A stretch of 49,601 bases of DNA from a virus. Below the pieces are notes generated by a model, which made no database searches, was not told the origin of the DNA, and worked only from the letters and a program-made list of their open reading frames with translations. Numbering within the stretch: the first letter of the stretch is position 1; each line of letters opens with the position of its first letter. The stretch is from IMG/VR virus record IMGVR_UViG_3300022562_001357, positions 1-49,601 of that record; one strand, written 5' to 3'. This document shows positions 9,962-47,704 of the stretch, piece by piece. The position numbers and the translations under genes were made by a program.

Positions 9962-9969
9962 GATACGGT
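9962..9969 (+). promoter_or_regulatory. Class B promoter (-10 TACGGT)
   Basis: TGATACGGT places a TANNNT -10 at 9964-9969, 16 bases before the ATG at 9986. No convincing -35 was found at the normal distance. Confidence 0.55.
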
Positions 9970-9985
9970 GCCGCCGGAGGTGTTC

Positions 9986-10288
9986 ATGGCACAGTGGGAC
10001 TACACGACCCCAGAGGGTCAGCAGACCGACAAGCTCGAGATCACGAAGCTGACGATCGAGGGCTTCGACACCGCGACCCCGACGGCGGTTGTCGAGTACG
10101 ACGAGTTCGAGACCGACGGCACGACGTTCATCCGATCCCGACGGGTCAGCATCACGGACGGCGCCGCGCTGCGGGTGCTGCTCGATGCGGCGGTGGTGAG
10201 TGGCAACACCGCGGACAACCTGGCGGAGGACCTGTTCACGCAGATGCTGGCCGAGGGCACGATCAGCGCCGGAGCCTTCGTGCCGTAG
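9986..10288 (+). CDS. Hypothetical protein, 100 aa, probably late-expressed
   Basis: ATG 9986 follows CCGGAGGTGTTC; a GTG at 9968 lies inside the -10 and is rejected. The protein is acidic and beta-rich for about 60 residues (KLEITKLTIEGFDTATPTAV) and then helical, with no cysteine. It is a single-gene unit with a class B promoter, like the virion genes, so a small structural or head-associated role is inferred. No family is recognised. Confidence 0.7.
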   Translation: MAQWDYTTPEGQQTDKLEITKLTIEGFDTATPTAVVEYDEFETDGTTFIRSRRVSITDGAALRVLLDAAVVSGNTADNLAEDLFTQMLAEGTISAGAFVP

Positions 10289-10672
10289 CGATGAGCCATC
10301 CTGAAACTCATCCCGCAGGACATCCATCGGCGTGGTGTCCGTTTCCAGGAGTGGCCAACTTGTCCACTCCTCCGGGGTCCCGAACTTTCTCTGCACACTC
10401 CGGGTCGCTCGCGCCATGAGTACGTGGGCGGCGCGCGCGGCTGCGCCGGCGGACCGTGCGCTGAGGATGACCTGTTGCAGCCCCGGGGGTCGCACCTCTG
10501 GGGCTCCGGGTCACGGCCTGTCGCAGACGGGGTTGCAGCGCGTCACCGGGCCATCTTCTGGCAACGGTGGGCGACAGGACTGGAGTGGCAACCGCTCCAA
10601 GGTCCTGCGACAATGCACAGCCACCACCGCTCCAGTAGCCAGTGACCGTGCAGTTCCGACAGAGGAGAAGCG
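10289..10672 (+). other. 384-base intergenic region with two related hairpins
   Basis: This is the longest stretch without a confident gene. It holds palindrome copy 2 (10348-10370) and a second hairpin with the same GGAGTGG arm (10582-10598: GGAGTGG, loop CAA, CCGCTCC). An open frame from ATG 10418 or 10467 ends overlapping the next start (stop 10674-10676), but neither start has a ribosome site and the codon pattern is weak. It could be a leader, a small RNA or a degraded gene. Confidence 0.5.
10348..10370 (+). repeat. 23-base intergenic palindrome, copy 2 of 3
   Basis: It is identical to the copy at 1528: GGAGTGG (10348-10354), CCAACTTGT, CCACTCC (10364-10370). It shares four further flanking bases with copy 3 (A before, TCC after). 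Confidence 0.8.
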
Positions 10673-10942
10673 ATGAACGACGAGACCCCGAAGCTGACCG
10701 TTCTTGGGAAAGACCAGGACGACGGCCAGCAACCACCGACCCCGATGCAACGAGCTCAGATCGCCATCGATGTCTGGGTCCGGACGCTGTCCGAGATGAC
10801 GCGTGGCAACCTCTCCCACAACGACCTCGGGGCGCTGCGAGACCACGTCGTGGCGGCGATGACGGACCCGGAGGCTGTGGTGGCGCATGCGGAGCAGTGG
10901 CCCTGTTTGGACCCGCCGTTCATCGTCGGCGATGGCGGCTGA
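10673..10942 (+). CDS. Hypothetical protein, 89 aa
   Basis: ATG 10673 follows AGAGGAGAAGCG. An acidic, disordered N-terminus of about 20 residues leads to a helical segment (QRAQIAIDVWVRTLSEMTRG) and a second helix. There is no metal site or membrane segment. No class A or B element lies immediately upstream; its leader is the hairpin-rich region before it. Function unknown. Confidence 0.7.
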   Translation: MNDETPKLTVLGKDQDDGQQPPTPMQRAQIAIDVWVRTLSEMTRGNLSHNDLGALRDHVVAAMTDPEAVVAHAEQWPCLDPPFIVGDGG

Positions 10943-11048
10943 ACTGAACGCGTGTGCAGTCAGATGTAAAGTCTTGCCCTGGGTTACAGATTTCGCTCGA
11001 CTGGAATCAGACGGCGGAGCATACTGAAATCACCAACGGGGAGCCACC

Positions 11049-11138
11049 ATGACCCGCATCGTCAGCCGCCCTCACTTCATCCCCACCCCCCGCAGCGCGC
11101 CCGGTCAACCTCCAGCAGGAGCCTGCGGGTTGGGATGA
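11049..11138 (+). CDS. Possible 29-aa leader peptide or small protein
   Basis: ATG 11049 follows GGGGAGCCACC and encodes 29 residues rich in proline and glycine. The stop overlaps an ATG (TTGGGATGACC) in another frame. An AT-rich patch with a possible -10 (CATACT, 11018-11023) precedes it. It may be a leader peptide for the 11223 gene or not translated at all. Confidence 0.3.
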   Translation: MTRIVSRPHFIPTPRSAPGQPPAGACGLG

Positions 11139-11222
11139 CCACCGGCGAAACGCCCTCCTGGGCGTCGCGGGGGCCTGCCCTACCCCGCCTGATGAGCCAG
11201 GGCACAACCCAGGAGCCACACC

Positions 11223-11465
11223 ATGACCCCGACCAGGAACCTTATCGACACGGCGGCTTCCCTCACCGCCAGAAATCCCTTCGCTGGCACAGAGGCGGAG
11301 GACGACTACGACAACGTCGTACGCGTGATCCTCTACCCGCACGACGGGCCCGTAGATTCGTTCGAGGCGATCTGCCGCGCGTTCGAGGCCGCTTCGTCCA
11401 GCGTCGACGTGACGGCTGAGGCTTTGCACGACTGCCTGAAAGCCATCGGCGCTCTCACCGCCTAG
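11223..11465 (+). CDS. Hypothetical protein, 80 aa
   Basis: ATG 11223 follows CCAGGAGCCACACC. The small, mildly acidic protein has two predicted helices (SFEAICRAFEAASSSVDVTA, ALHDCLKAIGAL) after a short strand (NVVRVILYP). No known motif. The position before an AT-hook-like pair of genes gives no firm clue. Confidence 0.7.
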   Translation: MTPTRNLIDTAASLTARNPFAGTEAEDDYDNVVRVILYPHDGPVDSFEAICRAFEAASSSVDVTAEALHDCLKAIGALTA

Positions 11466-11531
11466 CCCCCGACGTCGGCGCACCGGGTCCGCTCGGTGCG
11501 TCGGAGCCGCGTGCTACGCGAAGGAGGAAGG

Positions 11532-11855
11532 ATGGGAGCAATCAAGAAGGGACTGGCGTTTGCCGAGACCATCACCCCGAAGGTCGTACTCAGCGACGTG
11601 AGCAAGGCGCACCTGTTTGACATGCTGCTCGATCGTGCGCGCGCCGAGTTGGGCGAGGACGCGACGGATTACCAGTGCCTGCGCCTCATGGGCAGATGGT
11701 CGGAGCCCGTCGCGGTGGTTCGTGGTGACAAACCGATCGACGCGGAAAGGTCGCTGGCGAGCGCTGTCCGAGTCGCACGCCGCAGTGGATTCCAGCGCTA
11801 CGTGAACGCCTACACGTCGGAGCATGAGAAGTACCTCCGCACGGACCTGCCCTGA
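11532..11855 (+). CDS. Hypothetical protein, 107 aa
   Basis: ATG 11532 has a strong ribosome site (AAGGAGGAAGG). The protein is basic and mainly helical (SKAHLFDMLLDRARAELGED, ERSLASAVRVARRSGFQRYV). It begins a tightly overlapping trio in which the next two products carry AT-hook-like GRPR sequences. A nucleic-acid role is possible, but no motif in this protein shows it. Confidence 0.72.
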   Translation: MGAIKKGLAFAETITPKVVLSDVSKAHLFDMLLDRARAELGEDATDYQCLRLMGRWSEPVAVVRGDKPIDAERSLASAVRVARRSGFQRYVNAYTSEHEKYLRTDLP

Positions 11856-11929
11856 TGGCGCTCCCCAAGCGCCCCCGCGGCCGTCCCCGTACCGACTGGT
11901 TGGCGCGCGCTCTCGCCGAGGCCACCTGA
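11855..11929 (+). CDS. 24-aa AT-hook-like microprotein
   Basis: ATG 11855 overlaps the previous stop by one base, and the stop at 11927-11929 overlaps the next ATG, so translation could be coupled through the reading frame. The peptide begins MALPKRPRGRPRTDW; PRGRPR is the core of an AT-hook, which binds the minor groove of AT-rich DNA. It may be a true microprotein or a coupling bridge. Conservation in relatives would decide. Confidence 0.4.
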   Translation: MALPKRPRGRPRTDWLARALAEAT

Positions 11930-12114
11930 TGCCCCGCGGAGGACGCCGGAAGGGCGCAGGCCGCCCCCGCACCCGCGATCCAGGCCTCGTGCGTGTGGAG
12001 GTGCTCGCCACGCCAGAGGAGGCCGCGGAGTGGGCGCGGCGCGCTGCCGAGGCGGGTAGGCCCCGCGACGGGTGGCTCGCCGACGTCGTGCGTGAGGCTC
12101 TCGGCCGGAAGTAG
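11929..12114 (+). CDS. Small basic protein, AT-hook-like N-terminus, ribbon-helix-helix-like body
   Basis: ATG 11929 yields 61 residues. It opens with PRGGRRKGAGRPRTRD, a basic GRPR segment. A short strand (VRVEVLATPEE) and two helices (EEAAEWARRAAEAG, DGWLADVVREALG) follow. Strand-helix-helix is the layout of CopG/Arc-type dimers that bind operators as a paired ribbon. This family fit is from pattern alone. It is the last gene before a class B promoter. Confidence 0.6.
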   Translation: MPRGGRRKGAGRPRTRDPGLVRVEVLATPEEAAEWARRAAEAGRPRDGWLADVVREALGRK

Positions 12115-12148
12115 CCGCACGGGAGGCACGGGACCGCTGACGGCCCGG

Positions 12149-12157
12149 TGATAGTGT
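12149..12157 (+). promoter_or_regulatory. Class B promoter (-10 TAGTGT)
   Basis: TGATAGTGT sits 16 bases before the ATG at 12174, with CAGGAGG between. The same spacing is seen at 9962 and 16080. Confidence 0.55.
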
Positions 12158-12173
12158 CGGCGCAGGAGGCTCG

Positions 12174-12644
12174 ATGTCCATCACCGCCCGTCTCGTCCAG
12201 AGGCTCCGCCTCGCCCTCAACGACACCGGGGCAAGCTCAGAGCTGGTGGCGGTGCTCAACAACCTGCTCGGCGGCTCTGCGGCGCCGTGGCTACCTCTGA
12301 CCCCTGGGACTGGCTGGGCGGCGGAGGCCGTGCTCTACGGGGCTCCGGAGTACCGGGTCATCGGGGACGTCGTGCAGCTCCGGGGTGGCGTGGAGTCTCC
12401 CGTCGGGGACCAGTCGTTGCCGTCGGTGCTGCTGACGCTACCCGCCGCCGTGCTGCCGCCACCGACCGGGAGTGCGTGGACGTTTCCGGCGTCGTACCAG
12501 GCCAGCGGGCCTACGACGGTGCACAGCGGGCAGCTACTGCTCTCGACCTCGACCGGGACCCTCACGTTGTTCGGGAACACCGGTGCTGCGGCGACGGCGA
12601 AGCGCGTGTCCCTGGCCGGACTGGCCTGGTCGATCTCGCCGTAG
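12174..12644 (+). CDS. Probable virion surface or tail-fibre tip protein, 156 aa
   Basis: ATG 12174. After a helical start (residues 1-35) the protein is all-beta in pattern: WLPLTPGTGWAAEAVLYGAP, VIGDVVQLRGGV, LPSVLLTLPAAVLPPP, then LLLSTSTGTLTLFGNTG and VSLAGLAW. This run of G/T-rich strands, with L-P-x-x-L-P turns, resembles C-terminal beta-sandwich domains of phage tail fibres and baseplate proteins. It has its own class B promoter and lies apart from the head genes. The structural assignment is inference. Confidence 0.55.
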   Translation: MSITARLVQRLRLALNDTGASSELVAVLNNLLGGSAAPWLPLTPGTGWAAEAVLYGAPEYRVIGDVVQLRGGVESPVGDQSLPSVLLTLPAAVLPPPTGSAWTFPASYQASGPTTVHSGQLLLSTSTGTLTLFGNTGAAATAKRVSLAGLAWSISP

Positions 12645-12651
12645 AGATTCT

Positions 12652-12679
12652 GGGTTGTGGTCCTGCTGTCCCCGGCCAT
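12652..12679 (+). promoter_or_regulatory. Class A promoter-like element 5
   Basis: GGGTTGTGG (12652-12660), 14 bases, GCCAT (12675-12679). It ends 18 bases before the ATG at 12698. Confidence 0.7.
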
Positions 12680-12697
12680 ACGGGGCAGGAGGTGGTG

Positions 12698-14611: not shown

Positions 14612-14621
14612 GTGCTACGCT
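14612..14621 (+). promoter_or_regulatory. Class B promoter (-10 TACGCT)
   Basis: GTGCTACGCT, the same context as at 16080 and on the minus strand at 17178. The -10 ends 26 bases before the ATG at 14648. Confidence 0.5.
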
Positions 14622-16079: not shown

Positions 16080-16089
16080 GTGCTACGGT
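16080..16089 (+). promoter_or_regulatory. Class B promoter (-10 TACGGT)
   Basis: GTGCTACGGT, with the -10 ending 16 bases before ATG 16106 and CCGGAGG between. Confidence 0.55.
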
Positions 16090-17177: not shown

Positions 17178-17187
17178 ACCGTAGCAC
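17178..17187 (-). promoter_or_regulatory. Class B promoter, leftward (-10 TACGGT)
   Basis: On the minus strand this reads GTGCTACGGT, identical to the rightward element at 16080. It ends 17 bases before the ATG at 17160. Class A element 6 lies back to back with it. Confidence 0.55.
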
Positions 17188-17195: not shown

Positions 17196-17223
17196 GGGTT
17201 GTGGTCCTGGCTTGGCGGGCCAT
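17196..17223 (+). promoter_or_regulatory. Class A promoter-like element 6
   Basis: GGGTTGTGG (17196-17204), 14 bases, GCCAT (17219-17223). It ends 18 bases before ATG 17242. Confidence 0.7.
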
Positions 17224-17241
17224 GAGGGGTAGGAGGTGAGG

Positions 17242-18972: not shown

Positions 18973-19001
18973 GGGTTGTGGTAGGGGCGACGCGACGCCA
19001 T
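18973..19001 (+). promoter_or_regulatory. Class A promoter-like element 7
   Basis: GGGTTGTGG (18973-18981), 15 bases, GCCAT (18997-19001). It ends 18 bases before ATG 19020. Confidence 0.7.
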
Positions 19002-19019
19002 AGGAGGCGAGGAGGTTCG

Positions 19020-21701: not shown

Positions 21702-21711
21702 ATCGTATCGC
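21702..21711 (-). promoter_or_regulatory. Class B promoter of the endolysin gene (-10 TACGAT)
   Basis: The minus strand reads GCGATACGAT, ending 18 bases before ATG 21683. It is back to back with class A element 8, as at 17178/17196. Confidence 0.55.
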
Positions 21712-21714
21712 GAC

Positions 21715-21743
21715 GGGTTGTGGGGCGGGGTTCGCTGCGCCAT
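21715..21743 (+). promoter_or_regulatory. Class A promoter-like element 8
   Basis: GGGTTGTGG (21715-21723), 15 bases, GCCAT (21739-21743). It ends 18 bases before ATG 21762. Confidence 0.7.
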
Positions 21744-21761
21744 GGGAGGCAGGAGGTTCAC

Positions 21762-25326: not shown

Positions 25327-25336
25327 GCGATACGGT
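25327..25336 (+). promoter_or_regulatory. Class B-like element (-10 TACGGT) before hairpin
   Basis: GCGATACGGT lies about 160 bases before the next start (25498), with a hairpin and class A element 9 in between. It would give a structured leader, or act together with element 9. Confidence 0.4.
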
Positions 25337-25414: not shown

Positions 25415-25442
25415 GGGTTGTGGTCTGACGATGCGGGGCCAT
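25415..25442 (+). promoter_or_regulatory. Class A promoter-like element 9
   Basis: GGGTTGTGG (25415-25423), 14 bases, GCCAT (25438-25442). The leader to ATG 25498 is 55 bases, longer than for most copies. Confidence 0.65.
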
Positions 25443-25497
25443 AGCTGGTAGGCCCAGTGGCCATTGACCATGCGCTACGCGCGCAGGAGGACAACCG

Positions 25498-25866
25498 ATG
25501 AGCATCAAACGAGCGACTTGGCAGGAGTTCCGGGATTCCGGTCTGCTGTGGTGGACCAACCGCATCCTCCACACGGTGGGCTGGTGCATCGTGACCGAGG
25601 TGGACCAGGAGAGTGGCGTCATCACCGACGCTTACCCGGCGCGCACGAATTGGCTGGGGTTCTCGGAGGCGGTCGATGAAGAGGAGTGCGGGAAGTTCCG
25701 CATGCATGTCAGCCAGACCATCGCGACTGCTGGCGTGCTGACGATGGATGGCGCGGTCTTCACGGAGGACGCGCTGGGTCAACTCGCGGATGCTGCGGCC
25801 CGTGACCCGGGCGGACGCATCCAGATCGTGCACACGCCCCCTGCCGGCGAAGGAGTCTCCCGATGA
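25498..25866 (+). CDS. Hypothetical protein, 122 aa
   Basis: ATG 25498 follows GCAGGAGGACAACCG. It has a tryptophan-rich first half (LLWWTNRILHTVGWCIVTEV) and a helical second half (MHVSQTIATAGVLTMDGAVF). It overlaps the ParB-methyltransferase start by four bases, so it may be a partner of that protein. No family recognised. Confidence 0.7.
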   Translation: MSIKRATWQEFRDSGLLWWTNRILHTVGWCIVTEVDQESGVITDAYPARTNWLGFSEAVDEEECGKFRMHVSQTIATAGVLTMDGAVFTEDALGQLADAAARDPGGRIQIVHTPPAGEGVSR

Positions 25867-27287
25867 TCGAAGCCGTGCCCATCAGCGAAGTGGTGATCCC
25901 GGAGAAGCGACTCCGGGGTCTGAAGGATGTCTCCGACCTCGTGGGGAGCATCGCAGCCGTAGGGCTGATCACACCGATCTCCGTCACAACGGACTGCCCG
26001 CCTCGGCTCATCGCCGGGCTGAGGCGGATCACGGCGTGCCGGCAACTCGGGTGGGAGCGGATCCCCGCCATCCCCACCGACGCCAACGCCGAGTTGGTGG
26101 AGATCGACGAGAACCTGTGTCGCGTCGAGCTGACGGCCCTGGAGCGGGCCCAGCACCTCGCCCGCCGCAAGCAGGTCTGGGAGGCGCTGTACCCGGCCAC
26201 TCGCCACGGCACGAATCAGCACACCAAGGGCGACGCCCCCCCGAGCTTCGCCGCCAGCTCGGCGCAGGCCACCAAGCAGAGCGGGCGGACGATCCGACGT
26301 GCCGTGAAGATCGCCGAAGGTCTCGACGACGAGGCGGCCGACCTGATCAGCGGCACCCCGACCGCCGACAACCAGCAGGAGCTTCAGCGCCTCGCCAGGC
26401 TGCCAGTGGAGGACCAGCGTGCCGTCGCCCAACTCCTCGCCGATGGGGAGGTGACGCGGGTGAAGGTTGCGCAGCGTCGACTCCGCGCATCCAAGCCGCT
26501 CCCGGACCTGGCAGGGGACGTGCCGGCCTCGGTGCAGATCCGGTGCTGCACGGCCGCCGAGATGGTGGGAGAGCTCGCCGAGGCCGGGACCACCGTGGGC
26601 TTCGTGACCGCGGATCCGCCCTGGCCGTACAAGAACCAGAGGATCAACGGGAGCACGGACGGCCACTACGACGACGGGGCCAGCGAGGGCTACGGGCTGG
26701 AGGACATCGCCCGGGACATCGACGCTGCCTACGACGTGGCAGCGGACGACTGCTACCTGGCGCTCTGGGTGACCGGGCCGTTTCTGTGGCCGTGGTTCGA
26801 GGCCGTGCAGCGCTTCGGCATCGACGACATCGAGCCAGACGGGGAGGACCCGACGCGCTTCCGATGGGAATACGTCGGCGCCGGGGTGTGGAACAAGCGC
26901 CCCGACAACACCGGGCGGATCGGGTCCGGGACGCACTGGCGGGGAGACGGAGAGTTCCTGCTGCTCTACCGCAAGGGCAAGCCGGCGCCGCTGGCCACGA
27001 TCAGCAACGCCCACGTCTCCGACCGCACCGAGCACTCGGAGAAGCCCGGGATCTTCTGCTACAACCTCGTGAAGGCGTTCTGCCCACCTGGGACGCCCGT
27101 GCTGGACCTGTTCTGCGGTCGTGCCCCGACGGCCCGTGCCTGCCTCGGTCTGGTGCGACCGTACTACGGCTGCGACACCGACGAGGCTCGAGTCCACGAC
27201 GCCAAGGCGGCCATCGAGGAGGCGCGTCGACCCGGGCGGGAGAGCACGGCGGCGGCGAAGGCTGCGGGCGTGCAGGTGACGTCGTGA
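25863..27287 (+). CDS. ParB-like domain fused to MT-A70-type adenine methyltransferase
   Basis: ATG 25863 gives 474 residues. Residues 1-110 are a ParB/Srx-type domain (DLVGSIAAVGLITPISVTTD, RLIAGLRRITACRQLGWERI), followed by a helical ParB-like middle. Residues about 249-259 are ADPPWPYKNQR, the DPPW catalytic motif of N6-adenine methyltransferases. VLDLFCGRAPTARACLGLV near 417-435 is the SAM-binding motif I. Motif IV before motif I is the beta-type order. It probably methylates adenine in phage DNA, giving protection or regulation; the ParB part may set sequence choice. Such fusions are known in phages and mobile elements. Confidence 0.88.
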   Translation: MIEAVPISEVVIPEKRLRGLKDVSDLVGSIAAVGLITPISVTTDCPPRLIAGLRRITACRQLGWERIPAIPTDANAELVEIDENLCRVELTALERAQHLARRKQVWEALYPATRHGTNQHTKGDAPPSFAASSAQATKQSGRTIRRAVKIAEGLDDEAADLISGTPTADNQQELQRLARLPVEDQRAVAQLLADGEVTRVKVAQRRLRASKPLPDLAGDVPASVQIRCCTAAEMVGELAEAGTTVGFVTADPPWPYKNQRINGSTDGHYDDGASEGYGLEDIARDIDAAYDVAADDCYLALWVTGPFLWPWFEAVQRFGIDDIEPDGEDPTRFRWEYVGAGVWNKRPDNTGRIGSGTHWRGDGEFLLLYRKGKPAPLATISNAHVSDRTEHSEKPGIFCYNLVKAFCPPGTPVLDLFCGRAPTARACLGLVRPYYGCDTDEARVHDAKAAIEEARRPGRESTAAAKAAGVQVTS

Positions 27288-29169: not shown

Positions 29170-29187
29170 CGCGTCCTCCTGTTGTAG

Positions 29188-29216
29188 ATGGCGCGACACC
29201 CCACGACTCACAACCC
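29188..29216 (-). promoter_or_regulatory. Class A promoter-like element 10, leftward
   Basis: On the minus strand GGGTTGTGA (29216-29208), 15 bases, GCCAT (29192-29188). It ends 18 bases before ATG 29169. Confidence 0.7.
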
Positions 29217-29566: not shown

Positions 29567-29595
29567 GTCGGTTCTCCTGTTGGGTGTTCCGCGGT

Positions 29596-29602
29596 TAGCC
29601 TA
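29596..29602. promoter_or_regulatory. Bidirectional class B -10 between terL and the 29219-29566 gene
   Basis: TAGCCTA reads TAGCCT rightward (29596-29601) and TAGGCT leftward (29602-29597, in the class B context GCGATAGGCT). The rightward -10 ends only seven bases before the terL ATG, so transcription would start at or next to the ATG. Confidence 0.5.
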
Positions 29603-29608
29603 TCGCTG

Positions 29609-31330
29609 ATGGGCATTGCACAGAAGCAACTGGACCGGCAGTACCACTGCGCCCTCTCGCACATCGGGCGGGAGCCCCTGCTGCGGTACGCCATGCACCA
29701 TCACCGCAACCTCGTCGGGCGTCCCATGTCGTTCCGAGACATGCCGTTCCTGGTCTGGCTCTACGTCATCCTCCCCGACGTCGCGGAGCTCGTGGTCTCG
29801 AAGTGCACGCAGGTCGGGTTCACGGAGATGGCGCTGCTGTTCGCCATGTATCAGGCCGGGGAGCGGGGGCGCCGCCACACCTTCGTCTTCCCCGACGAGG
29901 ACATCGCCAAGCGCGTCGTCCAGACCCGCATCGACCCGGTGATCGACCGGGTCCCGCACTACCGCGAGATGGCCAGGCACAGCCGTCCCGGGAAGACCGC
30001 GGCTTCGGTGAAGCGTCGCCACTTCGGGATGGGCAGCTTCCAGTATTTGGGGTCGAACCAGCCCGCGAAGTTCGAGGAGTTCCAGACCGACTCAGTCCTG
30101 GTCGACGAGGTGGACCGCTGCGAACAGGCGCACCTTCCACTTCTCGACGCCCGCCTCGAGAACAGCGACTTCCCGCAGAAGCTGTTCTTCGGAAACCCGA
30201 GATCGACGCAGCGGATCCACGCCAGGTTCGAGCGCAGCGACCAGCACCGCTGGTACCAGAAGTGCGAGCACTGCGGATGCCTCCAGCGGGTCGACTGGTT
30301 CGCCAACATCGTGAGGCAACTCGATGACGGTAGCTGGGAGCCCCGGGACCGGGAGCGTGCCGCGGGGCTGTCGGCTGCTGTGTCGAAGCCACCGAGGTCG
30401 AAGGACATCCGGCCGGTGTGCGTTCGCTGCGACCGCCCCTGGGAGCGCCGAGAGGAGGGGTCCTGCTGGGTGCGTGAGACCTCCGGGACCGGGCGGGTTG
30501 GCGTGTCCGTGGCGAAGATGGACCACCTGGGACGGCGGCTCTGGACGATGTTCTGCAAATGGGTGGAGGTCCAGCACAACCTGACAGAGCTGCAAATCTT
30601 CTACGGCTCCGAACTCGGAATCGGGTACGAGCCTGCCAACGCCCGCCTCTCCGTCGAGGACCTGCGGAGCTGCGAGCGCGACTACGACATGGATCGCCTC
30701 GGTGGCGACGCCTACAAGCAGAAGACGGTGGTGGCGGGGATCGATGTCGGGGCGGTGCTCAACATCGTGATCGACAGCATCGAGAAGCGGCCGGACCTGC
30801 TGGACGCGGAGAAGTCACGGCCCACCAGGGTCAACGTCCTGACGGCGGCGTGTCGCACCTTCGAGGAGGTCGGGGAACTGTTGCGGCTCTACCACGTCAA
30901 CTGCGCCGTGATGGACGCGGAACCAGAGCACCACAAGGCCCAGGAGTTCCGTGACTGGGCGCGACGCAACACGCGGTGCTTCTTCTGGCTCTGCCGCTAC
31001 CACCCGACGCCGCGGGTGGGGCGCATGGTCTACGGGATGCAGATGGACGGCCCTGCCGGCGTCGTGACCGTCGACAAGACGGCCGTGATGGATGAGACCA
31101 CGGCGGAGATCCGGGGGATGCGGCGCTGGTACCCACGCGACATCCGGCACGTCCTGCACTGGCAGGAGCACATGCGGGCCCCGGTCCGGAAGCCGCGGAA
31201 GAAGGGGGACGGGTACGAGTGGGACCGCGGCAACAAGCGCGACGACTACAGGCAGGCGGAGAACTACAGCCGCATCGCCTGGGATCTACTCAACATGGCT
31301 GGTGGGGTGACGACGCTGTCGCTGCGGTGA
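29609..31330 (+). CDS. terL: Terminase large subunit, lambda gpA type
   Basis: ATG 29609 gives 573 residues. SKCTQVGFTE near 64-73 is the lambda-gpA style Walker A, where the catalytic lysine (here Lys65) sits at the start rather than in G-K-T. SVLVDEVDR gives Walker B Asp166 and Glu167. Zinc-type pairs (CEHCGCLQ, CVRCDRPW) lie mid-protein as in gpA relatives. The nuclease half has GIDVG near Asp379, VMDAEPE near Asp436 and a distal SRIAWDLL. It pumps DNA into proheads and cuts it. No ribosome site precedes the ATG, so it may be leaderless. The frame extends upstream but runs antisense to 29219-29566. Confidence 0.9.
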   Translation: MGIAQKQLDRQYHCALSHIGREPLLRYAMHHHRNLVGRPMSFRDMPFLVWLYVILPDVAELVVSKCTQVGFTEMALLFAMYQAGERGRRHTFVFPDEDIAKRVVQTRIDPVIDRVPHYREMARHSRPGKTAASVKRRHFGMGSFQYLGSNQPAKFEEFQTDSVLVDEVDRCEQAHLPLLDARLENSDFPQKLFFGNPRSTQRIHARFERSDQHRWYQKCEHCGCLQRVDWFANIVRQLDDGSWEPRDRERAAGLSAAVSKPPRSKDIRPVCVRCDRPWERREEGSCWVRETSGTGRVGVSVAKMDHLGRRLWTMFCKWVEVQHNLTELQIFYGSELGIGYEPANARLSVEDLRSCERDYDMDRLGGDAYKQKTVVAGIDVGAVLNIVIDSIEKRPDLLDAEKSRPTRVNVLTAACRTFEEVGELLRLYHVNCAVMDAEPEHHKAQEFRDWARRNTRCFFWLCRYHPTPRVGRMVYGMQMDGPAGVVTVDKTAVMDETTAEIRGMRRWYPRDIRHVLHWQEHMRAPVRKPRKKGDGYEWDRGNKRDDYRQAENYSRIAWDLLNMAGGVTTLSLR

Positions 31331-33049: not shown

Positions 33050-33597
33050 GCCGCCACCCACTCGGCCCGGCGAACCCGCTCGTCGATCTCGGGGGACACG
33101 CGGTCGAGGTGCCACAACCCGAGTTGCCCGCGGAGGGGCTTCGGGAAGGGCACCGGGTCGACGAGTCGGCGGACGGCGTCGAGGCGCCACCAATAGGCGG
33201 CGGACGTATCCCGCCACGCCAGCCAGCCCGGAGTACTCTGCCACTCCACGATCTCGTCTTCCTGCGCGTCGACACAGGCCGCGAGCACAGCCGTCGCGAC
33301 GATGGCGCGGGTGAGGATGCGGGGGCCGTTGCTGATCTCCCTCCGCCGCTCTACATCCAACGGATCGCCGTAGCCGACGAAGCACGGACCAGGGGGGCTG
33401 CTGACCACGAACAGCAGTTCGCCCGGAGCAGCCGCGCGCAGGTCATCGTTCCACCCCTTCGGCAGCGTTGCCCCCGCGTGGATGGCGATGCGCTGGCCCA
33501 GCAGGCCATCTGGGATCGGGAGCTTGCGATTCTCGCAGCGCTTCCCAAGCCAAGTGACAGCGTGGGACCATGGGGGAAGCAAGGTCAGGGCTCTCAT
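33046..33597 (-). CDS. ASCH-domain protein, 183 aa
   Basis: ATG 33597 overlaps the upstream stop. The N-terminus RALTLLPPWSHAVTWLGKRC, then ENRKLPIPDGLLGQRIAIHA, is the ASCH-domain pattern (R-A-L-T-L-x-x-P-W, G-K-x-x-E-N-R, G-x-x-x-I-H-A). ASCH folds are PUA-like beta barrels thought to bind RNA or modified nucleotides; some have nuclease activity. Common in phages, function here unknown. The C-terminal half (WWRLDAVRRLVDPVPFPKPL) fits the domain's end. Confidence 0.78.
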   Translation of the reverse strand: MRALTLLPPWSHAVTWLGKRCENRKLPIPDGLLGQRIAIHAGATLPKGWNDDLRAAAPGELLFVVSSPPGPCFVGYGDPLDVERRREISNGPRILTRAIVATAVLAACVDAQEDEIVEWQSTPGWLAWRDTSAAYWWRLDAVRRLVDPVPFPKPLRGQLGLWHLDRVSPEIDERVRRAEWVAA

Positions 33598-34305: not shown

Positions 34306-34324
34306 CTCATCCTCCTCGTCTCTT

Positions 34325-34353
34325 GTGGCCTCTGAGCCGCGGCGTCACAACCC
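34325..34353 (-). promoter_or_regulatory. Class A promoter-like element 11, leftward
   Basis: Minus strand: GGGTTGTGA (34353-34345), 15 bases, GCCAC (34329-34325), the only copy with C as the last base. It ends 19 bases before ATG 34305. Confidence 0.62.
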
Positions 34354-34591: not shown

Positions 34592-34611
34592 GGAACCTCC
34601 TGTGCACTCTC

Positions 34612-34640
34612 ATGGCGTGGGGGGAGGCGAACCACAACCC
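34612..34640 (-). promoter_or_regulatory. Class A promoter-like element 12, leftward
   Basis: Minus strand: GGGTTGTGG (34640-34632), 15 bases, GCCAT (34616-34612). It ends 20 bases before ATG 34591. The class B -10 of the portal gene lies five bases to its right. Confidence 0.7.
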
Positions 34641-34644: not shown

Positions 34645-34654
34645 GCGATAGTCT
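34645..34654 (+). promoter_or_regulatory. Class B promoter of the portal gene (-10 TAGTCT)
   Basis: GCGATAGTCT, ending 15 bases before ATG 34670. It is divergent from and nearly touches class A element 12. Confidence 0.58.
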
Positions 34655-34669: not shown

Positions 34670-37228
34670 ATGATCGTCACGACTCACCGCAGCGCCAACG
34701 AACTCACGGTCCACACCCACGTCACCCGCCGGACGATTGGTCGTCGGACTTGGGGGCACTCCTCCCGCCAGGACATCGAGTCGATGTCTCTTCGAGAGCG
34801 CCAGACCAAAGCCTTCGCGACGGTCTACGGGGGCGGTGCCTCGGCCGACATGAACCACCACCGTGCGGTGCGACGCGACGCGACGCTGACCCCGGAGCAG
34901 CTGTGGCTGGTCTACGTGATGTGCGGAGACGTCCGCGCCGCCGTCGACAGCATCGCGCGCCGCGTCAGCACCCAGACCTGGCGGGTGCAGCCCACGGTGG
35001 AGCCGGACGACCCGCTCTACCCCGACGCGGTGGCCCAGGCAGCGGCGGTCACGGCGGGGCTCCGCGGGCCGTCACCGGAGGACGACTGGCGGACGTTCTG
35101 CCTCAAGGTCACCATCGACGCACTGGTGTTCTGGCATGGCGCCATCGAGAAGGTGTTCGCCAGCACGCTCCGTGGACAGGCCGGGTTCATCACGGAGCTC
35201 GGGACGCCACATGGCCCCACGATCCATCCCGACGTCACGAGCTACGGCCGATGGGTCGGGTACACGCAGGACATGCAGGGCGGCTCCTTCTACTACGGGC
35301 CCGCCGATGACCGGAACCAGACGACCCGACTGACCCTCGACCAGATCGCGCTGCTTCGCCTCACCCCGAACACCCGCAGCCCCTACCCGGTCCCGATCAT
35401 CGAGACCATCGTTCGCGAGGTCACGACGCTGGTGCGGGCCTCGGAGCGGACCATGTACACGATGGACCGCCACGAGATCCCAACCGGCTTCCTCGTCCTC
35501 ACCGGCACCCCACCGGACGCAGTGGACGAGGTCGAGGACGGACTGGCAAACAAGGCCGGGCGCGACGACAAGGTCCGCGTCATCCACAGCATGAACGCCA
35601 CGGCCCCGGCGCAGTGGCTTCGGATCCAGGAGACCTTCAAGGAAGTCGAGTACGCCCCGGTGATCGCGCAGACCCAGAACGTGATCTGGCGGAACTTCGG
35701 GGTCAACCGCGTCGAGATGGGCGAGACGGAGGGCAACACCAAGACCTCGTCACAGGCCCAGATCGAGATCGGAGACTCCCATCTCATCGAGCCACTACTG
35801 GAGGCGTGGGCGTCTCTGGCGAACAGACACCTCGTCCCCGCCTACGTGGCGCGGTGGGAGCGCAGCGAGCGGAAGCCGGTGCTGTGCGAGTTCGTGTTCG
35901 CCGACGAGCAGGACTTGACTCCAGAGGAGGAGTTGGACCGAGCCAACGCCGTCCGTGTCCGGATCGAGTCGGCGCAGAGCACGATCAACGAGGAGCGGAA
36001 GCTACAGGGCAAGCCCCCGGTGGAGAATGGTGACGTGCTCCGCCTCAAGGACGGCGCCAACTGGGTCGACGTCGGGGTGGTGCGCGACGGCGACGCCAGC
36101 GCCGAGGACGACGACGAGACCCCAGATGACGATCCGCCGAACGGCACGGATGGCAACAACGGCCAGCCATCCGACGACGGTGACGATGCCGGCGACGACG
36201 GTGAGCGGCACCGATGCGGTGATGGTTGTAGCCATGACGACACACCGAGTGCCGCCGCGATGACGGTGGCCCAACTCGCTGTGGCAGCGGAGTGGTCGCG
36301 TCGTGCCCGTCGTGCCGCCGAGTTGTTCCCCAGCGACTGGCAGAGCCCGGGACGATTCGACGGCTACCGGACGCTCGACCTGCGAGCGCTGTTCGACGTC
36401 GTGCTGGCCTACGGCAGCGAGGTCGATCCGCTGTGGCAGCAGGCCAGGTCGGCGGCGGTGGCCGCGGTGGCCGCCGCGTACCGAGCCGATCGTCTGGACG
36501 GCACGGAGCTGCGGACGCGCCTCGGTGAAATCGTGGAAGAGCTGCGGGTGGGCTGGTCGCTGTCGACGCTGAAGCACTACGAGACCGCGGCTGGGCTCGG
36601 GGCCGATGCGGCTCGGGAGTTCACCGAGTTCTCCGACATGGGCCAGGACACGCCGGAACGCGCCGCGCTGTACCACGGTCAGGCCATGGCCTACCTCGAC
36701 GCGCTGATGTCGGACCTTCAGGTGCGGATGCTGCGCAACATCACGGCGGCACTGCAGGCCCAGGAGGCCGAGGAGGAGCGTGCGGATCACCCGGAGGTTC
36801 GTCAGGAGGCCGTAGAGCACGCCCTGTTGACGTCGGTGGAGCGGACCTGGGACGCCAACGAGCACCGCATCACCAACTGGTCCGGCAAGCTGGTGGAGTT
36901 GGCCAGCGCCACGATGGTCGGGCTGCTCGCGTGGTGGAGCGGCCAGACCGATGCCGCGCCTGCCGGTGAGGTTGTCATTGCCGATGAGCCGATGGAGACA
37001 GAGCGGATCGAGCCGGTGGAGTGGGGGGGGCTCTGGGTAGCAACTGGGGGCCCAGGAGGTGACGAGAACACCTGCGAGGACTGCGCGTTCGAGAGCCTTC
37101 AGGGCTGGCGGCCGATGTCTGCGATTGCGCGATACCCGGCCGGCGACGTCCGCTGCGGAGCGCGGGACAGGTGCGCGCTGGTCGTAGCCACGCGCTCCGA
37201 GGTCGAGGCCGGGATCACGCCACCGTAG
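34670..37228 (+). CDS. Portal protein with C-terminal MuF-like head morphogenesis part
   Basis: ATG 34670 after GGAGCGCCC gives 852 residues. Residues about 60-470 fit a phage portal: a clip and wing with RAAVDSIARRVSTQTW, FWHGAIEKVF, LRLTPNTRSPYPVPIIETIV, HEIPTGFLVLTG, GNTKTSSQAQIEIGDSHLIE and AINEERKLQGKPP-like spacing. Residues about 473-525 are an acidic, low-complexity linker. The last 320 residues are helical and end with DENTCEDC...VRCGARDRC, resembling the C-x2-C...C-R-C end of SPP1 gp7/Mu gpF minor head proteins. The portal forms the dodecameric DNA gate. A fusion with MuF is inferred from pattern. Confidence 0.82.
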   Translation: MIVTTHRSANELTVHTHVTRRTIGRRTWGHSSRQDIESMSLRERQTKAFATVYGGGASADMNHHRAVRRDATLTPEQLWLVYVMCGDVRAAVDSIARRVSTQTWRVQPTVEPDDPLYPDAVAQAAAVTAGLRGPSPEDDWRTFCLKVTIDALVFWHGAIEKVFASTLRGQAGFITELGTPHGPTIHPDVTSYGRWVGYTQDMQGGSFYYGPADDRNQTTRLTLDQIALLRLTPNTRSPYPVPIIETIVREVTTLVRASERTMYTMDRHEIPTGFLVLTGTPPDAVDEVEDGLANKAGRDDKVRVIHSMNATAPAQWLRIQETFKEVEYAPVIAQTQNVIWRNFGVNRVEMGETEGNTKTSSQAQIEIGDSHLIEPLLEAWASLANRHLVPAYVARWERSERKPVLCEFVFADEQDLTPEEELDRANAVRVRIESAQSTINEERKLQGKPPVENGDVLRLKDGANWVDVGVVRDGDASAEDDDETPDDDPPNGTDGNNGQPSDDGDDAGDDGERHRCGDGCSHDDTPSAAAMTVAQLAVAAEWSRRARRAAELFPSDWQSPGRFDGYRTLDLRALFDVVLAYGSEVDPLWQQARSAAVAAVAAAYRADRLDGTELRTRLGEIVEELRVGWSLSTLKHYETAAGLGADAAREFTEFSDMGQDTPERAALYHGQAMAYLDALMSDLQVRMLRNITAALQAQEAEEERADHPEVRQEAVEHALLTSVERTWDANEHRITNWSGKLVELASATMVGLLAWWSGQTDAAPAGEVVIADEPMETERIEPVEWGGLWVATGGPGGDENTCEDCAFESLQGWRPMSAIARYPAGDVRCGARDRCALVVATRSEVEAGITPP

Positions 37229-37294: not shown

Positions 37295-37409
37295 TCCCGC
37301 CCCGGAGTCGTTCGGATCTGCACGTCACGTCGATACCCAGCGCTGGTGCCTGTGCATTCCCGCGCGAGATCCGAGCCGCCGGACCGGGTCGTACGGGACC
37401 GCGACGACA

Positions 37410-37439
37410 TTGACAGTTCGCGCGAGACGCTGATAGGCT
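37410..37439 (+). promoter_or_regulatory. Class B promoter with consensus -35
   Basis: TTGACA (37410-37415), 18 bases, TAGGCT (37434-37439) in the context TGATAGGCT. It is the only class B site with a good -35, and looks like a standard housekeeping promoter. It serves the prohead protease and major capsid genes. Confidence 0.68.
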
Positions 37440-41098: not shown

Positions 41099-41119
41099 GC
41101 CTTTCCTCCGTGCCCGTGT

Positions 41120-41148
41120 ATGGCCCAGTAGTCGCGGAGCCACAACCC
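41120..41148 (-). promoter_or_regulatory. Class A promoter-like element 13, leftward
   Basis: Minus strand: GGGTTGTGG (41148-41140), 15 bases, GCCAT (41124-41120). It ends 21 bases before ATG 41098. Confidence 0.7.
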
Positions 41149-41154: not shown

Positions 41155-41163
41155 TGATACCCT
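41155..41163 (+). promoter_or_regulatory. Class B promoter (-10 TACCCT)
   Basis: TGATACCCT ends 20 bases before ATG 41184. It re-starts structural transcription to the right of the leftward insert, and is back to back with class A element 13. Confidence 0.55.
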
Positions 41164-43775: not shown

Positions 43776-44224
43776 TGCCGCGCCCTGGCTGCCCCTGTCA
43801 CGGCGATCTCCGTCAGCGCCTCGCCGGCACCCGCGGCGGCGACCTCCAGGTAGCATGGACGCCGACGTGGCAGCCCGGGAAGCAGTGGCCCGGGTGTCAC
43901 GCCGTGTTCAGTCACGAACCGCCCACGGAGACCCGTGCCGGGTTGGGCTGGGCGGTCTGTGCCTGCGAGCCTGGGAGCACTCGCCTCGGTCGAGGGTGGG
44001 CAGTTGTGTACGGGCAAGTCGATGGCATCGCGGAGCACCTCGCCTCGGTTCCGGAGCGGTCGGTGCTGGCGCTGCTGTTTCCGGGTGAGGCGGTGGGGCC
44101 CGAACTGGTGCGGGCCGTGACGGACGCGGACAGTCGAGGCGGACGCGTGATCTACGTGCGGAGCATCGAGACCGCCGGGGCACTGCGGCTGCCACGGGAC
44201 GGGACGGCACCGACGCCAGCCTGA
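43775..44224 (+). CDS. Hypothetical protein, 149 aa
   Basis: ATG 43775 overlaps the previous stop by one base. Early cysteines (GCPCHG) and a later Rossmann-like stretch (VLALLFPGEAVGPELVRAVT, GGRVIYVRSIETAGALRLP) are visible, with no diagnostic motif. The head-to-tail completion position (gp10/minor tail) is suggested by order only. Confidence 0.66.
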   Translation: MPRPGCPCHGDLRQRLAGTRGGDLQVAWTPTWQPGKQWPGCHAVFSHEPPTETRAGLGWAVCACEPGSTRLGRGWAVVYGQVDGIAEHLASVPERSVLALLFPGEAVGPELVRAVTDADSRGGRVIYVRSIETAGALRLPRDGTAPTPA

Positions 44225-44230
44225 TACGGT
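44222..44230 (+). promoter_or_regulatory. Class B promoter (-10 TACGGT)
   Basis: TGATACGGT overlaps the stop of the previous gene and ends 24 bases before ATG 44255. Confidence 0.52.
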
Positions 44231-45175: not shown

Positions 45176-45491
45176 ACACCCAGCGGAGACGTTCCCGGCA
45201 CGCCTGCTCTTCGGCCGAAGTGAGCCCGGCGTCGTCCCCGAAGCTGTCGTACCAGCCTGCAAGCGCTGAGGCTGTCGAGTCGAAGGCGGCCTGGCTGGTC
45301 GCAGCGGCAGCCTTCAGGGAGGATCGCTGGGCCGAGGTGAGAGACGTGGCTTCGTCGATGCCCTTGCTGCCCCAGTGGAGTCGGATCTGCTGTGTCGGCT
45401 CCGTGGTCACGGTCTCCGTGTCGTAGGGCGCGGGATCCGGCCCATAGGCATGAAGCTGCCCCTCGTACCCGTTCGCGTCGACCTCACCCAT
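45165..45491 (-). CDS. Hypothetical protein, 108 aa
   Basis: ATG 45491 has GGAGG six bases upstream; ATG 45497 is too close to that site. A short beta start (YEGQLHAYGPDPAPYDTETV) precedes a helical, alanine-rich region (SLTSAQRSSLKAAAATSQAA) and a C-terminal helix (EEQACRERLRWVWSR). It overlaps the possible holin gene, so it may belong to the same late unit. Confidence 0.68.
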   Translation of the reverse strand: MGEVDANGYEGQLHAYGPDPAPYDTETVTTEPTQQIRLHWGSKGIDEATSLTSAQRSSLKAAAATSQAAFDSTASALAGWYDSFGDDAGLTSAEEQACRERLRWVWSR

Positions 45492-45936
45492 TGTCATCCT
45501 CCAATTCGTAGCGCTGCAACTCGCGCGTGATTGCACCCTGACTCACCGACAGGGCGCCCTCGGCGCCGCTGGGGGTGATGTTCCTGCGGCCTGCCTGGCT
45601 GCTCCGCCAGTCGAGGTGTTCCCGCAACGCCAGCCGATTCCGCTCGGCAATCGAGCGTAGCACCATCTCGCGGGCCTCACGAGCCGACCGATCGGACTCT
45701 CGGCGCGCGGCGTGCTCGGCGGCCATGGAGTCCAACGCTTTCTGAAGAGTCTCGATTGTTGCGATGCGGCTGGAGACCAGTTCGCGGACCACCCAGACGA
45801 AGAGACCAACCACAGGGCCGATGAAGACCACGAGCATCCACGTCACCGGGTCGGTGGCGCCGGACAGCGCGGCTGCGCCAGTCGCTGCTCCGGTGGTGGC
45901 AATCGTCGCAACCGTAGAGGGGTCAGTTGGGTTCAT
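45484..45936 (-). CDS. Membrane protein with coiled coil, holin candidate, 150 aa
   Basis: ATG 45936 follows CAGGAACGGTGCGC. Residues 8-30 are alanine/threonine-rich and weakly hydrophobic. Residues about 35-56 are a clear span (WMLVVFIGPVVGLFVWVVRE). A long charged coiled coil follows (ATIETLQKALDSMAAEHAAR). A class B -10 precedes it, consistent with late lysis expression. A holin is the best guess, although the lysin gene is 24 kb away; a tail-associated membrane protein is the alternative. Confidence 0.55.
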   Translation of the reverse strand: MNPTDPSTVATIATTGAATGAAALSGATDPVTWMLVVFIGPVVGLFVWVVRELVSSRIATIETLQKALDSMAAEHAARRESDRSAREAREMVLRSIAERNRLALREHLDWRSSQAGRRNITPSGAEGALSVSQGAITRELQRYELEDDNG

Positions 45937-45966
45937 GCGCACCGTTCCTGCAAGCGGTTCGGCTGC

Positions 45967-45976
45967 ACTGTATCTC
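45967..45976 (-). promoter_or_regulatory. Class B promoter, leftward (-10 TACAGT)
   Basis: The minus strand reads GAGATACAGT, ending 30 bases before ATG 45936. Confidence 0.5.
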
Positions 45977-46083
45977 TCGGCTGTGTCGTGCTGGTCGGCG
46001 CTGCCGTTCGTCTGTCGGTGCTGCACAGTGACCGGATGCTCATCGGTGAGCACTGTGCATCTGCGCTGGATCAGCGGGGGCCG

Positions 46084-46299
46084 CTACGGGAGCTGTTCGC
46101 CGCGTTGCTGCCTGTCCAGCAGCCACAGATCAGCATCGGCGAGCCGACCACTGGCGGCAAGGCACTCCACCAACTCCGGGTCCAGCCGACCGCCTCGATC
46201 CCCTCGATGGAAGGGCAGCGGGAACGCGGTCATCGTGGCGCCCCGCAACCGACGCACTGCCCATGAGAGATCCGTCCGCATCTGCAATGGGACGGTCAT
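46084..46299 (-). CDS. Hypothetical protein, 71 aa
   Basis: ATG 46299 overlaps the upstream stop (ATGA). Basic and helical, with the end LVECLAASGRLADADLWLLD resembling the compact Ead-type ends of other phage accessory proteins. Last gene of the RusA operon. Confidence 0.64.
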   Translation of the reverse strand: MTVPLQMRTDLSWAVRRLRGATMTAFPLPFHRGDRGGRLDPELVECLAASGRLADADLWLLDRQQRGEQLP

Positions 46300-46655
46300 G
46301 ACTCCACTCCCGTGAAGTGCGCCTGCCACACCTCGTACGCAGGTGGGTCCGGCTCCTCGACTTGGCGGTCGAGGTCGACGTCATGGGCCAACACCAGCAC
46401 ATGGTGATCGCCCCAGCGGAAGGCATTGGCCATTCTGTGCCCGTTAGCCAGCCAGTGGCCAGCCTCTGACGGCACGTCGAACTCTGCATCCGCAGCGAGT
46501 TGTGCCGCGTGGAGACGGGCCAGCAGGTCGATTAGCCTGTGCACCTCGATCACGGTGACAGGTGGGTACGCGTCGTGCACGTATGTCCAGGCTCCGAACT
46601 GGTGCAGGACTCGCTGGACGTCCAAGAACAGCATCTCATGAATTCGATAGATCAC
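46296..46655 (-). CDS. Hypothetical protein, 119 aa
   Basis: ATG 46655 overlaps the RusA stop. The helical protein has a histidine-rich middle (HWLANGHRMANAFRWGDHHV), with HDAYPPVTVIEVHRLIDLLA before it. No catalytic arrangement is evident. Function unknown. Confidence 0.68.
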   Translation of the reverse strand: MIYRIHEMLFLDVQRVLHQFGAWTYVHDAYPPVTVIEVHRLIDLLARLHAAQLAADAEFDVPSEAGHWLANGHRMANAFRWGDHHVLVLAHDVDLDRQVEEPDPPAYEVWQAHFTGVES

Positions 46656-47212
46656 GCCGCCTCCACTCGCAGCCGGATCGAGGGCTCCTCACCCACGGCT
46701 GCGTACCACTTCCCGGTACCACGCCCCCACGTCACCGCCTGGGAGTCATCCCACCACACCGCGCACTTGGTGCAGACGTCGAACACCGCGTTGGTGAGCC
46801 GGTCGAGGTCAGGGGTGCGGGGACACCAGACCCGCTCACCGCGCTTCCAGTCCTCGGCGGACACGATGAAGTCGGTCTGGTACCGCGGGTTCGGCACCTT
46901 GAATCCGTCCCGCACGACCACCTTCGGCACGTTGGGGCGCGTCTTGGGTCTGGGCAGGACGAACGCCAGGGTGACCCTCAGCGGGCCGTTGAGCGGCTTG
47001 TTGCCCCACCAGGCCATCGCGACCTTCGACTGGGCCAGCGCCACCCACTCCGGGTGGCCATGGTCGGAGTCCGGGCGAGACGCCGCCCACATCTTCGCGC
47101 GCTTGCCACAGGCGCGGCACGGCTTACCGGCGCTCTGAAGCATTGGGGTGAGACGCGCCTTCGGCTTCGGGGGCATGTCCAGTGTCACGTCGAGGACGAG
47201 TTGCGGGGTCAT
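46652..47212 (-). CDS. RusA-like Holliday junction resolvase with zinc knuckle
   Basis: ATG 47212 overlaps the upstream stop. The 186 residues contain the RusA pattern: PLRVTLAFVLPRPK (core strand), then TPDLDRLTNAVFDV with Asp135, Asp137 and Asp145, and WWDDSQAV with Asp155 and Asp156. These correspond to the metal-binding aspartates of RusA dimers, which cut four-way junctions. An insert near residues 32-50 (CRACGKRAKMW) carries a C-x2-C pair; the family core lacks it. It would resolve branched phage DNA before packaging. Confidence 0.8.
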   Translation of the reverse strand: MTPQLVLDVTLDMPPKPKARLTPMLQSAGKPCRACGKRAKMWAASRPDSDHGHPEWVALAQSKVAMAWWGNKPLNGPLRVTLAFVLPRPKTRPNVPKVVVRDGFKVPNPRYQTDFIVSAEDWKRGERVWCPRTPDLDRLTNAVFDVCTKCAVWWDDSQAVTWGRGTGKWYAAVGEEPSIRLRVEAA

Positions 47213-47619
47213 CGTCCCCCCTTCGGCCATCCCTGCCCTCGTCTCTCACGCACCGCCAGCAGCTCGGCCCCCATGCGGCTGAACAACGTCCACTCCGGTC
47301 CGCCCAGCACGCTGGAGGCCAGCGCGAGGTCCATGGCCCTCTGATAGCTCATGGCCCCACGCTTCGGTCCGGTCTCCGTCACCATGTCGCCCGTGGGGCT
47401 CACGCCGTGCGCGCACCAGTCCAGCGCGAGGAGGCGGAAGTGGGCGCGCACCCGTGGGGTGTCCCGCATCGACACCCACCTGTCATGCCCGTAGCCGGGC
47501 AGGCGGTGGGGTCCAGACAGGCGCAGCCATAGGCCGTCCCTTTCACAGCGCATTGAAGCCAGTCGGCCTCCCGGTCCCCTCCAGGAGGCGAGGTCGCAGG
47601 TGAGGGAGTTGTCGTTCAT
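47209..47619 (-). CDS. Hypothetical protein, 136 aa
   Basis: ATG 47619 follows GGCAGGAGGAACG. A mixed protein with DGLWLRLSGPHRLPGYGHDR and a helical end (MDLALASSVLGGPEWTLFSR). No motif recognised. First gene behind class A element 14 and coupled to rusA. Confidence 0.68.
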   Translation of the reverse strand: MNDNSLTCDLASWRGPGGRLASMRCERDGLWLRLSGPHRLPGYGHDRWVSMRDTPRVRAHFRLLALDWCAHGVSPTGDMVTETGPKRGAMSYQRAMDLALASSVLGGPEWTLFSRMGAELLAVRERRGQGWPKGGR

Positions 47620-47636
47620 CGTTCCTCCTGCCCCTC

Positions 47637-47664
47637 ATGGCCCGGGATCCTCAACCCACAACCC
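47637..47664 (-). promoter_or_regulatory. Class A promoter-like element 14, leftward
   Basis: Minus strand: GGGTTGTGG (47664-47656), 14 bases, GCCAT (47641-47637). It ends 17 bases before ATG 47619. Confidence 0.7.
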
Positions 47665-47698
47665 CGGCTCACGACTACCCGAAGAACAGCCCGCGGCC

Positions 47699-47704
47699 TA
47701 TGCT
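47699..47704 (+). promoter_or_regulatory. Class B-like -10 (TATGCT) before the glycosyltransferase gene
   Basis: TATGCT lies 38 bases before ATG 47743. The context (GCGGCC) is not the usual GATA form, so this is a weaker call. It is divergent from class A element 14. Confidence 0.42.

Follow-up and report, generated by a model that had tools for sequence, protein, structure and literature searches.

Are the genes of the virus contig IMGVR_UViG_3300022562_001357 transcribed from two kinds of promoter, one for virion, packaging and lysis genes and another for the rest, and does such a division amount to a temporal switch? Both were proposed in an earlier interpretation made from the letters of the DNA (the sequence-only reading). 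The window analysed here is the whole contig, 49,601 bases with 66–70% GC and an incomplete gene at either end, in which 85 genes were called, covering ~90% of its length. Two motif classes were found upstream of genes, a bipartite class 1 and a −10-like class 2, and the recognised units are divided between them by function. The contig also encodes a sigma factor, g12. The best explanation, which we hold with moderate confidence, is a two-holoenzyme programme in which the phage sigma factor would read class 1 and the primary sigma factor of the host, SigA, would read class 2.

Two motif classes upstream of genes

Class 1 is the bipartite motif GGGTTGTGR-N14/15-GCCAY, of which 14 sites were accepted (Table 1). 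Twelve have at most one mismatch, against ~0.1 expected from a first-order Markov control; the remaining two, with two mismatches each, both lie upstream of units. The first box, GGGTTGTGG, occurs in ten exact copies and its reversed pattern in none, and nine of the ten are followed by GCCAT 14–15 nt downstream. The copy at 33112(−) was rejected as a promoter, being inside a gene and lacking the second box. Degenerate bipartite copies stand at 1716, 5132, 7963, 29216(−) and 34353(−). GTTGTG and GCCA are invariant in all 14 sites and G is found at −5 in 11; TTGTGG and the CAT box are separated by a spacer of 16–17, and position −12 lies 20–28 nt from the ATG in 11 of the 14. In the second box C replaces T at −12 and no T is present at −15, while G−14 and A−11 are kept. 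Class 1 has the form of a phage-sigma regulon: a repeated bipartite motif with −35/−10 spacing, placed upstream of transcription units. Across 84,980 species genomes the pattern combined with a Shine-Dalgarno sequence gave only 17 isolated single matches in unrelated phyla; therefore class 1 corresponds to no recognisable host promoter class.

For class 2, GATANNNT occurs 15 times, seven of them 18–40 nt ahead of a start called on that strand (0.30 expected; p ~1e-8), and GCTACGNT seven times, four of them so placed (0.14 expected; p ~5e-6). The common form, YG(A/C)TANNNT, has 19 genome-wide matches, ten of which lie 18–40 nt before a start, compared with 0.37 expected and 0.5 after shuffling of the upstream regions. 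This answers the refuting condition set in the sequence-only reading itself, that such motifs be as common inside genes. No enrichment near starts was observed for the same letters permuted or for the reversed pattern. The elements listed in the sequence-only reading were all recovered, at or within ~7 nt of the positions given there. New members of the class are a site at 29605(−) ahead of g57 and, less certainly, TAGCCT in front of the gene of the terminase large subunit (TerL).

In 12 of the 13 class 2 sites a start lies 18–58 nt downstream, once the starts of g72 and g80 are corrected to 41184 and, by eye, to ~45936; the match at 25328 is an orphan. Among the 11 sites for which a gene was called, 8 have their position −12 at 18–26 nt from the ATG. 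T−12 is present in 13/13 sites, of which 12 have the form YGM-TANNNT and the other AGA-TANNNT. A −35 box was sought at all of them and found only at 37407. In promoters of M. tuberculosis the −10 is TANNNT and a −35 is absent; CGN stands before most of these boxes, and those with TGN are the strongest (PMC3898074). Class 2 matches this actinobacterial SigA −10 form (CGN/TGN-TANNNT, no −35). Because of this match and the missing −35, class 2 is most plausibly a promoter for the primary sigma factor of the host.

In both classes alike the −10-like box usually lies 18–28 nt before the start codon. This common geometry is the main reason for reading both as core promoters, implying leaders that would be ~10 nt long.

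Division of the genes by function

The recognised genes include Erf (g05), a pyrimidine-dimer glycosylase (g06), DnaB (g08), the sigma factor (g12) and DUF5131 (g13). Also recognised were an endolysin (g40; endolysin families and PG_binding_1), a ParB-methyltransferase (g50), TerL (g58), the portal (g68; portal families), a major capsid candidate (g70; phrog_212, 4e-4), a head-tail adaptor (g73; phrog_442) and a RusA-like resolvase (g83; RusA, 1e-11). All four recognised virion or lysis units carry class 2 (portal, g69/capsid, adaptor, endolysin), or five of five if TerL is counted, and all four recognised DNA-metabolism or regulatory units carry class 1 (Erf, sigma, ParB-methyltransferase, RusA). 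Over these eight units the Fisher p is 0.014 (1/70), and 0.008 (1/126) with TerL. None of the 14 class 1 sites precedes a recognised virion or lysis gene. The class 2 genes g16, g21, g30, g31 and g78, beta-rich or tail-fibre-like by eye and without a family match, were excluded from the count.

A functional partition by promoter class is supported, and temporal switching is only a possible extension of it. The two classes claimed in the sequence-only reading stand in the first respect; it had overlooked that class 1 has a second box, that the phage encodes a sigma factor and that class 2 has the features of a host SigA promoter. Its back-to-back pairs are also real, at 17178/17196, 21702/21715, 34632/34645 and 41140/41155. 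In these divergent gaps (g31/g32, g40/g41, g67/g68 and g71/g72) the −12 positions of the two classes are 38, 34, 35 and 36 bp apart, so close that a polymerase on one promoter should cover the other. The interlock may act as a switch, or it may reflect nothing more than a compact genome.

The phage sigma factor and its own promoter

The product of g12 possesses the conserved regions 2, 3 and 4 of the sigma70 family, each above the Pfam gathering cut-off and also aligned with RpoD/SigA of the PDB, plus a C-terminal winged-helix-like part. In the alignment with RpoD (E. coli sigma70 numbering, which we assigned from the alignment) Q437 is replaced by A and H455 by N, and Q is found at 585 and at 588; E458 and the −11 pocket residues Y430, W433 and W434 are kept. 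In E. coli sigma70, Q437 reads T−12 and Q437H accepts or restores the use of C−12, H455 and E458 contact the −14 G:C pair, and E585Q and R588H relax −33 (PMC2613000). Sigma32 has a paired C−12 and a flipped A−11 (PMC10216364). The residue changes would fit the departure of class 1 at −12, which is consistency and not proof, and g12 is likely the sigma factor for class 1.

The promoter of the sigma operon is a hybrid, in which CGC-TATGTT overlaps the −35 and CCA-TAGGCT the −10 of a class 1 site. This is the only class 1 unit with TANNNT within 75 nt upstream, and it has two, compared with ~0.06 expected in its 75 nt from a density of 76 per 99,202 strand-bases. The excess of host-type hexamers suggests that the operon may be started up from the host sigma factor and then autoregulated. 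Likewise, the sigma factor of phage 7-11 has been proposed to be made first through the host sigma and later to regulate itself (PMC4331800). The pair at 25328/25415, regarded in the sequence-only reading as the one place with both classes, was confirmed, but it is not alone, as the sigma operon promoter (5132) also has host-type −10 hexamers.

Proposed programme and its alternatives

In the programme that we favour, g12 would direct the host RNA polymerase core to class 1 (−35 GGGTTGTGG, spacer 16–17, −10 SGCCATR, G−5) and thereby drive genes of replication, recombination, DNA modification and regulation, its own operon among them. The host polymerase with its primary sigma factor would read class 2, an extended −10 YG(A/C)TANNNT without −35, and transcribe the units for packaging, capsid, adaptor and lysis along with other virion-like ones. 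From the host-type hexamers at the sigma operon the first sigma molecules would be made, until positive autoregulation took over, and in the four divergent gaps, where the class 1 −35 interlocks with the class 2 −10 (−12 positions 34–38 bp apart), only one polymerase would be accommodated at a time. If class 2 is read by host SigA, the virion promoters could fire at once, and timing therefore needs an extra control or may not exist; an activator, occlusion or competition with SigA could provide it. We only tentatively extend the programme to a reversed strategy, which we rate somewhat below an even chance: the phage would use its own autoregulated sigma for replication and takeover genes, leave virion and lysis genes to the host sigma, and use the interlocked pairs as mutually exclusive switches.

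Several points weigh against the two-holoenzyme programme. In the sigma-encoding phages studied so far (phiEco32, 7-11, SPO1 and T4) it is the late or structural genes that are served by the phage factor, the reverse of the assignment made here. The residue arguments carry E. coli contacts over to a protein with ~33% identity to known sigma factors, and no relative was found in which conservation of the motifs might be compared. The contig is incomplete, and another polymerase or an activator could lie outside it. Moreover, several unit heads (e.g., g17, g18, g35, g43, g46, g51 and g76) have neither class, contrary to the claim that class 1 precedes all the remaining blocks.

The split may also exist without timing, an explanation compatible with the favoured programme: both holoenzymes would be active together, and the split would tune dosage or resist host shut-off. 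No anti-sigma factor or late activator was recognised in the window, and in 7-11 the host sigma70 transcription is not shut off. Nevertheless, so clean a functional split is typical of temporal classes, and the two promoters of each interlocked divergent pair would get in each other's way if used simultaneously. We rate this explanation as rather unlikely.

More doubtful is the conventional order, in which class 1 would be transcribed early through a host or virion-delivered factor and g12, made from its class 1 operon, would read class 2 and activate the late virion genes. It follows the logic of 7-11, and the sigma gene does lie in a class 1 operon while the virion genes have class 2; g12 also retains the pocket for A−11 and, as the contact for the G of the extended −10, E458. 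However, g12 has lost Q437, the reader of the T−12 that every class 2 site contains, class 2 is exactly the common actinobacterial SigA −10 and needs no special sigma, and no class 1-like promoter class was found in the 84,980 species genomes.

We consider it improbable that class 1 has a role other than that of a promoter, as a binding site or a start-associated signal in the leader through which repression or translation would be controlled. Start-associated sequences (SAS) whose role is unknown occur in Cluster K mycobacteriophages and in Microbacterium EF phages. However, SAS overlap the ribosome-binding site and class 1 lies further upstream; it is bipartite, with promoter-like spacing, and its second box occupies the place of the class 2 −10. 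Least credible is a phage RNA polymerase, encoded beyond the ends of the contig, as the reader of class 1. The truncation of a gene at each end of the contig would allow for it, but a sigma factor is present, and class 1 consists of two boxes with a spacing of 14 or 15, unlike T7-type promoters, which form a single uninterrupted block and lack a variable spacer.

Comparison with known phages

The late genes of phage 7-11 are under a phage sigma factor (PMC8948821). This phage and phiEco32 resemble the present one in encoding a sigma factor, in the bipartite phage promoters with 16-nt spacing of 7-11 (GTAAtg-16-aCTA), and in having predicted phage promoters upstream of a sigma gene that also has host promoters. 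In these phages, however, the phage sigma serves late genes (middle and late in phiEco32) and host sigma70 the early ones, whereas the phage-specific class here avoids the recognised virion and lysis genes. Further differences are the motif itself and g12, a sigma70 factor that possesses regions 2, 3 and 4.

In N4 the late RNAs are made by the host sigma70 polymerase (PMC4496689). The likeness would lie in phage-specified transcription for early and replication genes and host sigma70 polymerase for virion and lysis genes, and the portal, capsid, adaptor and endolysin units here do carry the host-type promoters. N4 differs in possessing phage RNA polymerases and a single-stranded DNA-binding protein as activator; in this window of an incomplete contig none was recognised, only the sigma factor. 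If the favoured programme is true, the phage would attain a division of labour like that of N4, with replication genes left to phage machinery and virion genes to that of the host, by means of no more than a sigma factor. Promoter class would also aid in recognising virion genes where most proteins lack known relatives, and the residue changes of g12 together with the motif changes would offer a ready test of promoter-specificity rules.

In Microbacterium EC phages a repeated motif is mostly confined to non-structural units (PMC7302621). Phages of clusters EC and EI (Quhwah, MementoMori) are likewise high-GC and lytic, with repeated, oriented intergenic motifs near starts and an annotated sigma, Erf and ParB. 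The Quhwah motif precedes genes 5, 8 and 12, the exonuclease and other non-structural units, and not the portal, capsid or tail genes; its 18-bp copies lie 37–48 nt before starts, and one also stands before a gene between MuF and the protease. Quhwah was checked for a second class at its structural genes and none was found. The EC/EI motif differs in being a single 18-bp block (TAGACTATAGGTGTAAGC), the annotated sigma has only 77–86 amino acids (in Quhwah a 77-residue helix-turn-helix-like protein), and protein relatedness to the present phage is limited to a weak Erf match. The SAS of Cluster K are also repeated, oriented, located upstream of non-structural genes and not in the host genome, but they are 13 bp long, lie at the ribosome-binding site, are not bipartite and have no partner sigma reported there.

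Relatives and host

Close relatives were found neither in viral-contig scans with the sigma, TerL and capsid proteins, two class 1 patterns and one TerL active-site pattern, nor in scans of microbial genome contigs; class 1 matches in other contigs were single chance matches. Against 50,697 phage records megablast gave no DNA match, and tblastn gave none for portal or capsid, 21–25% identity for TerL and up to ~35% for the sigma factor over at most 57% of its length. These searches provided no host link, and the clues to an actinobacterial host are the 68% GC and the promoter form only. Single-sequence AlphaFold models were unusable, with mean predicted local distance difference test scores of 32 and 42.

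Positions and neighbouring features

Table 1. Putative promoters of both classes, with the sigma factor and terminase genes, in window coordinates.
Feature	Position	Strand	Remarks
Class 1, g02-g04	491..521	+	GGGTTGTGG-N15-GCCATGG; −12 to ATG 22 nt
Class 1, g05 (Erf), probably g06-g08 (pyrimidine-dimer glycosylase, DnaB)	1716..1746	+	one mismatch
Hybrid, sigma operon g09-g12	5128..5170	+	class 1 ATGTTGTGG-N15-GCCATAG; two host-type −10 hexamers overlap it
Class 1-like, sigma gene 3′ end, possibly for g13 (DUF5131)	7963..7993	+	one mismatch; 105 nt to g13
Class 1, g22-g26	12652..12681	+	exact
Class 1, g32-g34	17196..17225	+	exact
Class 1, g36-g39	18973..19003	+	exact
Class 1, g41-g42	21715..21745	+	exact
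Class 1, g49-g50 (ParB-DNA methyltransferase)	25415..25444	+	exact; g50 families
Class 1, g56-g53	29186..29216	−	one mismatch
Class 1, g66-g59	34323..34353	−	two mismatches
Class 1, g67, interlocked with portal class 2	34610..34640	−	exact
Class 1, g71, interlocked with g72 class 2	41118..41148	−	exact
Class 1, g84-g81 (g83, RusA-like resolvase)	47635..47664	−	exact
Class 2, g16	9961..9969	+	TGATACGGT; −12 to ATG 22
Class 2, g21 (tail-fibre-like by eye)	12149..12157	+	TGATAGTGT
Class 2, g28-g29	14613..14621	+	TGCTACGCT
Class 2, g30	16081..16089	+	TGCTACGGT
Class 2, g31	17178..17186	−	TGCTACGGT
Class 2, g40 endolysin	21702..21710	−	CGATACGAT
Class 2 match, no called gene directly downstream	25328..25336	+	CGATACGGT
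Class 2, g57	29597..29605	−	CGATAGGCT
Class 2, g68 portal	34646..34654	+	CGATAGTCT
Class 2, g69 (protease-like by eye), g70 (major capsid candidate)	37407..37439	+	TTGACA-N18
Class 2, g72-g75 (g73, head-tail adaptor)	41155..41163	+	TGATACCCT; g72 start corrected to 41184
Class 2, g77-g78	44222..44230	+	TGATACGGT
Class 2-like, g80	45967..45975	−	AGATACAGT; 36 nt before in-frame ATG
g12, sigma70-family factor, proposed class 1 reader	6823..7995	+	phrog_351 3e-34; Pfam Sigma70_r2/r3/r4; PDB RpoD/SigA 5e-24
g58, terminase large subunit (TerL)	29609..31330	+	phrog_675 4e-61; GpA_ATPase

The gap between g57(−) and TerL(+) holds the near-palindromic GGTTAGCCTATCGC (29590–29615), with a −10 hexamer on each strand (TAGGCT/TAGCCT). 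TAGCCT, on the plus strand 13 nt before the ATG, is the only class 2-like element for TerL, which, with this as its −10, would possibly be nearly leaderless. The orphan class 2 match lies 87 nt before a class 1 promoter of the same strand and may be the source of a short RNA or peptide.

Among the neighbouring genes, g80, whose start is probably 45936, encodes one membrane segment and is a holin candidate. In g50 (25863–27287) a ParB-like N-terminal domain is fused to a DNA methyltransferase domain. The portal (34670–37228) is unusually long, 852 amino acids, with a large extension C-terminal to the portal domain. The last gene, g85 (47743–49599; 619 amino acids, cut by the contig end), has no Pfam or PHROG match and is glycosyltransferase-like by eye; a TATGCT hexamer stands 44 nt 5′ of it.

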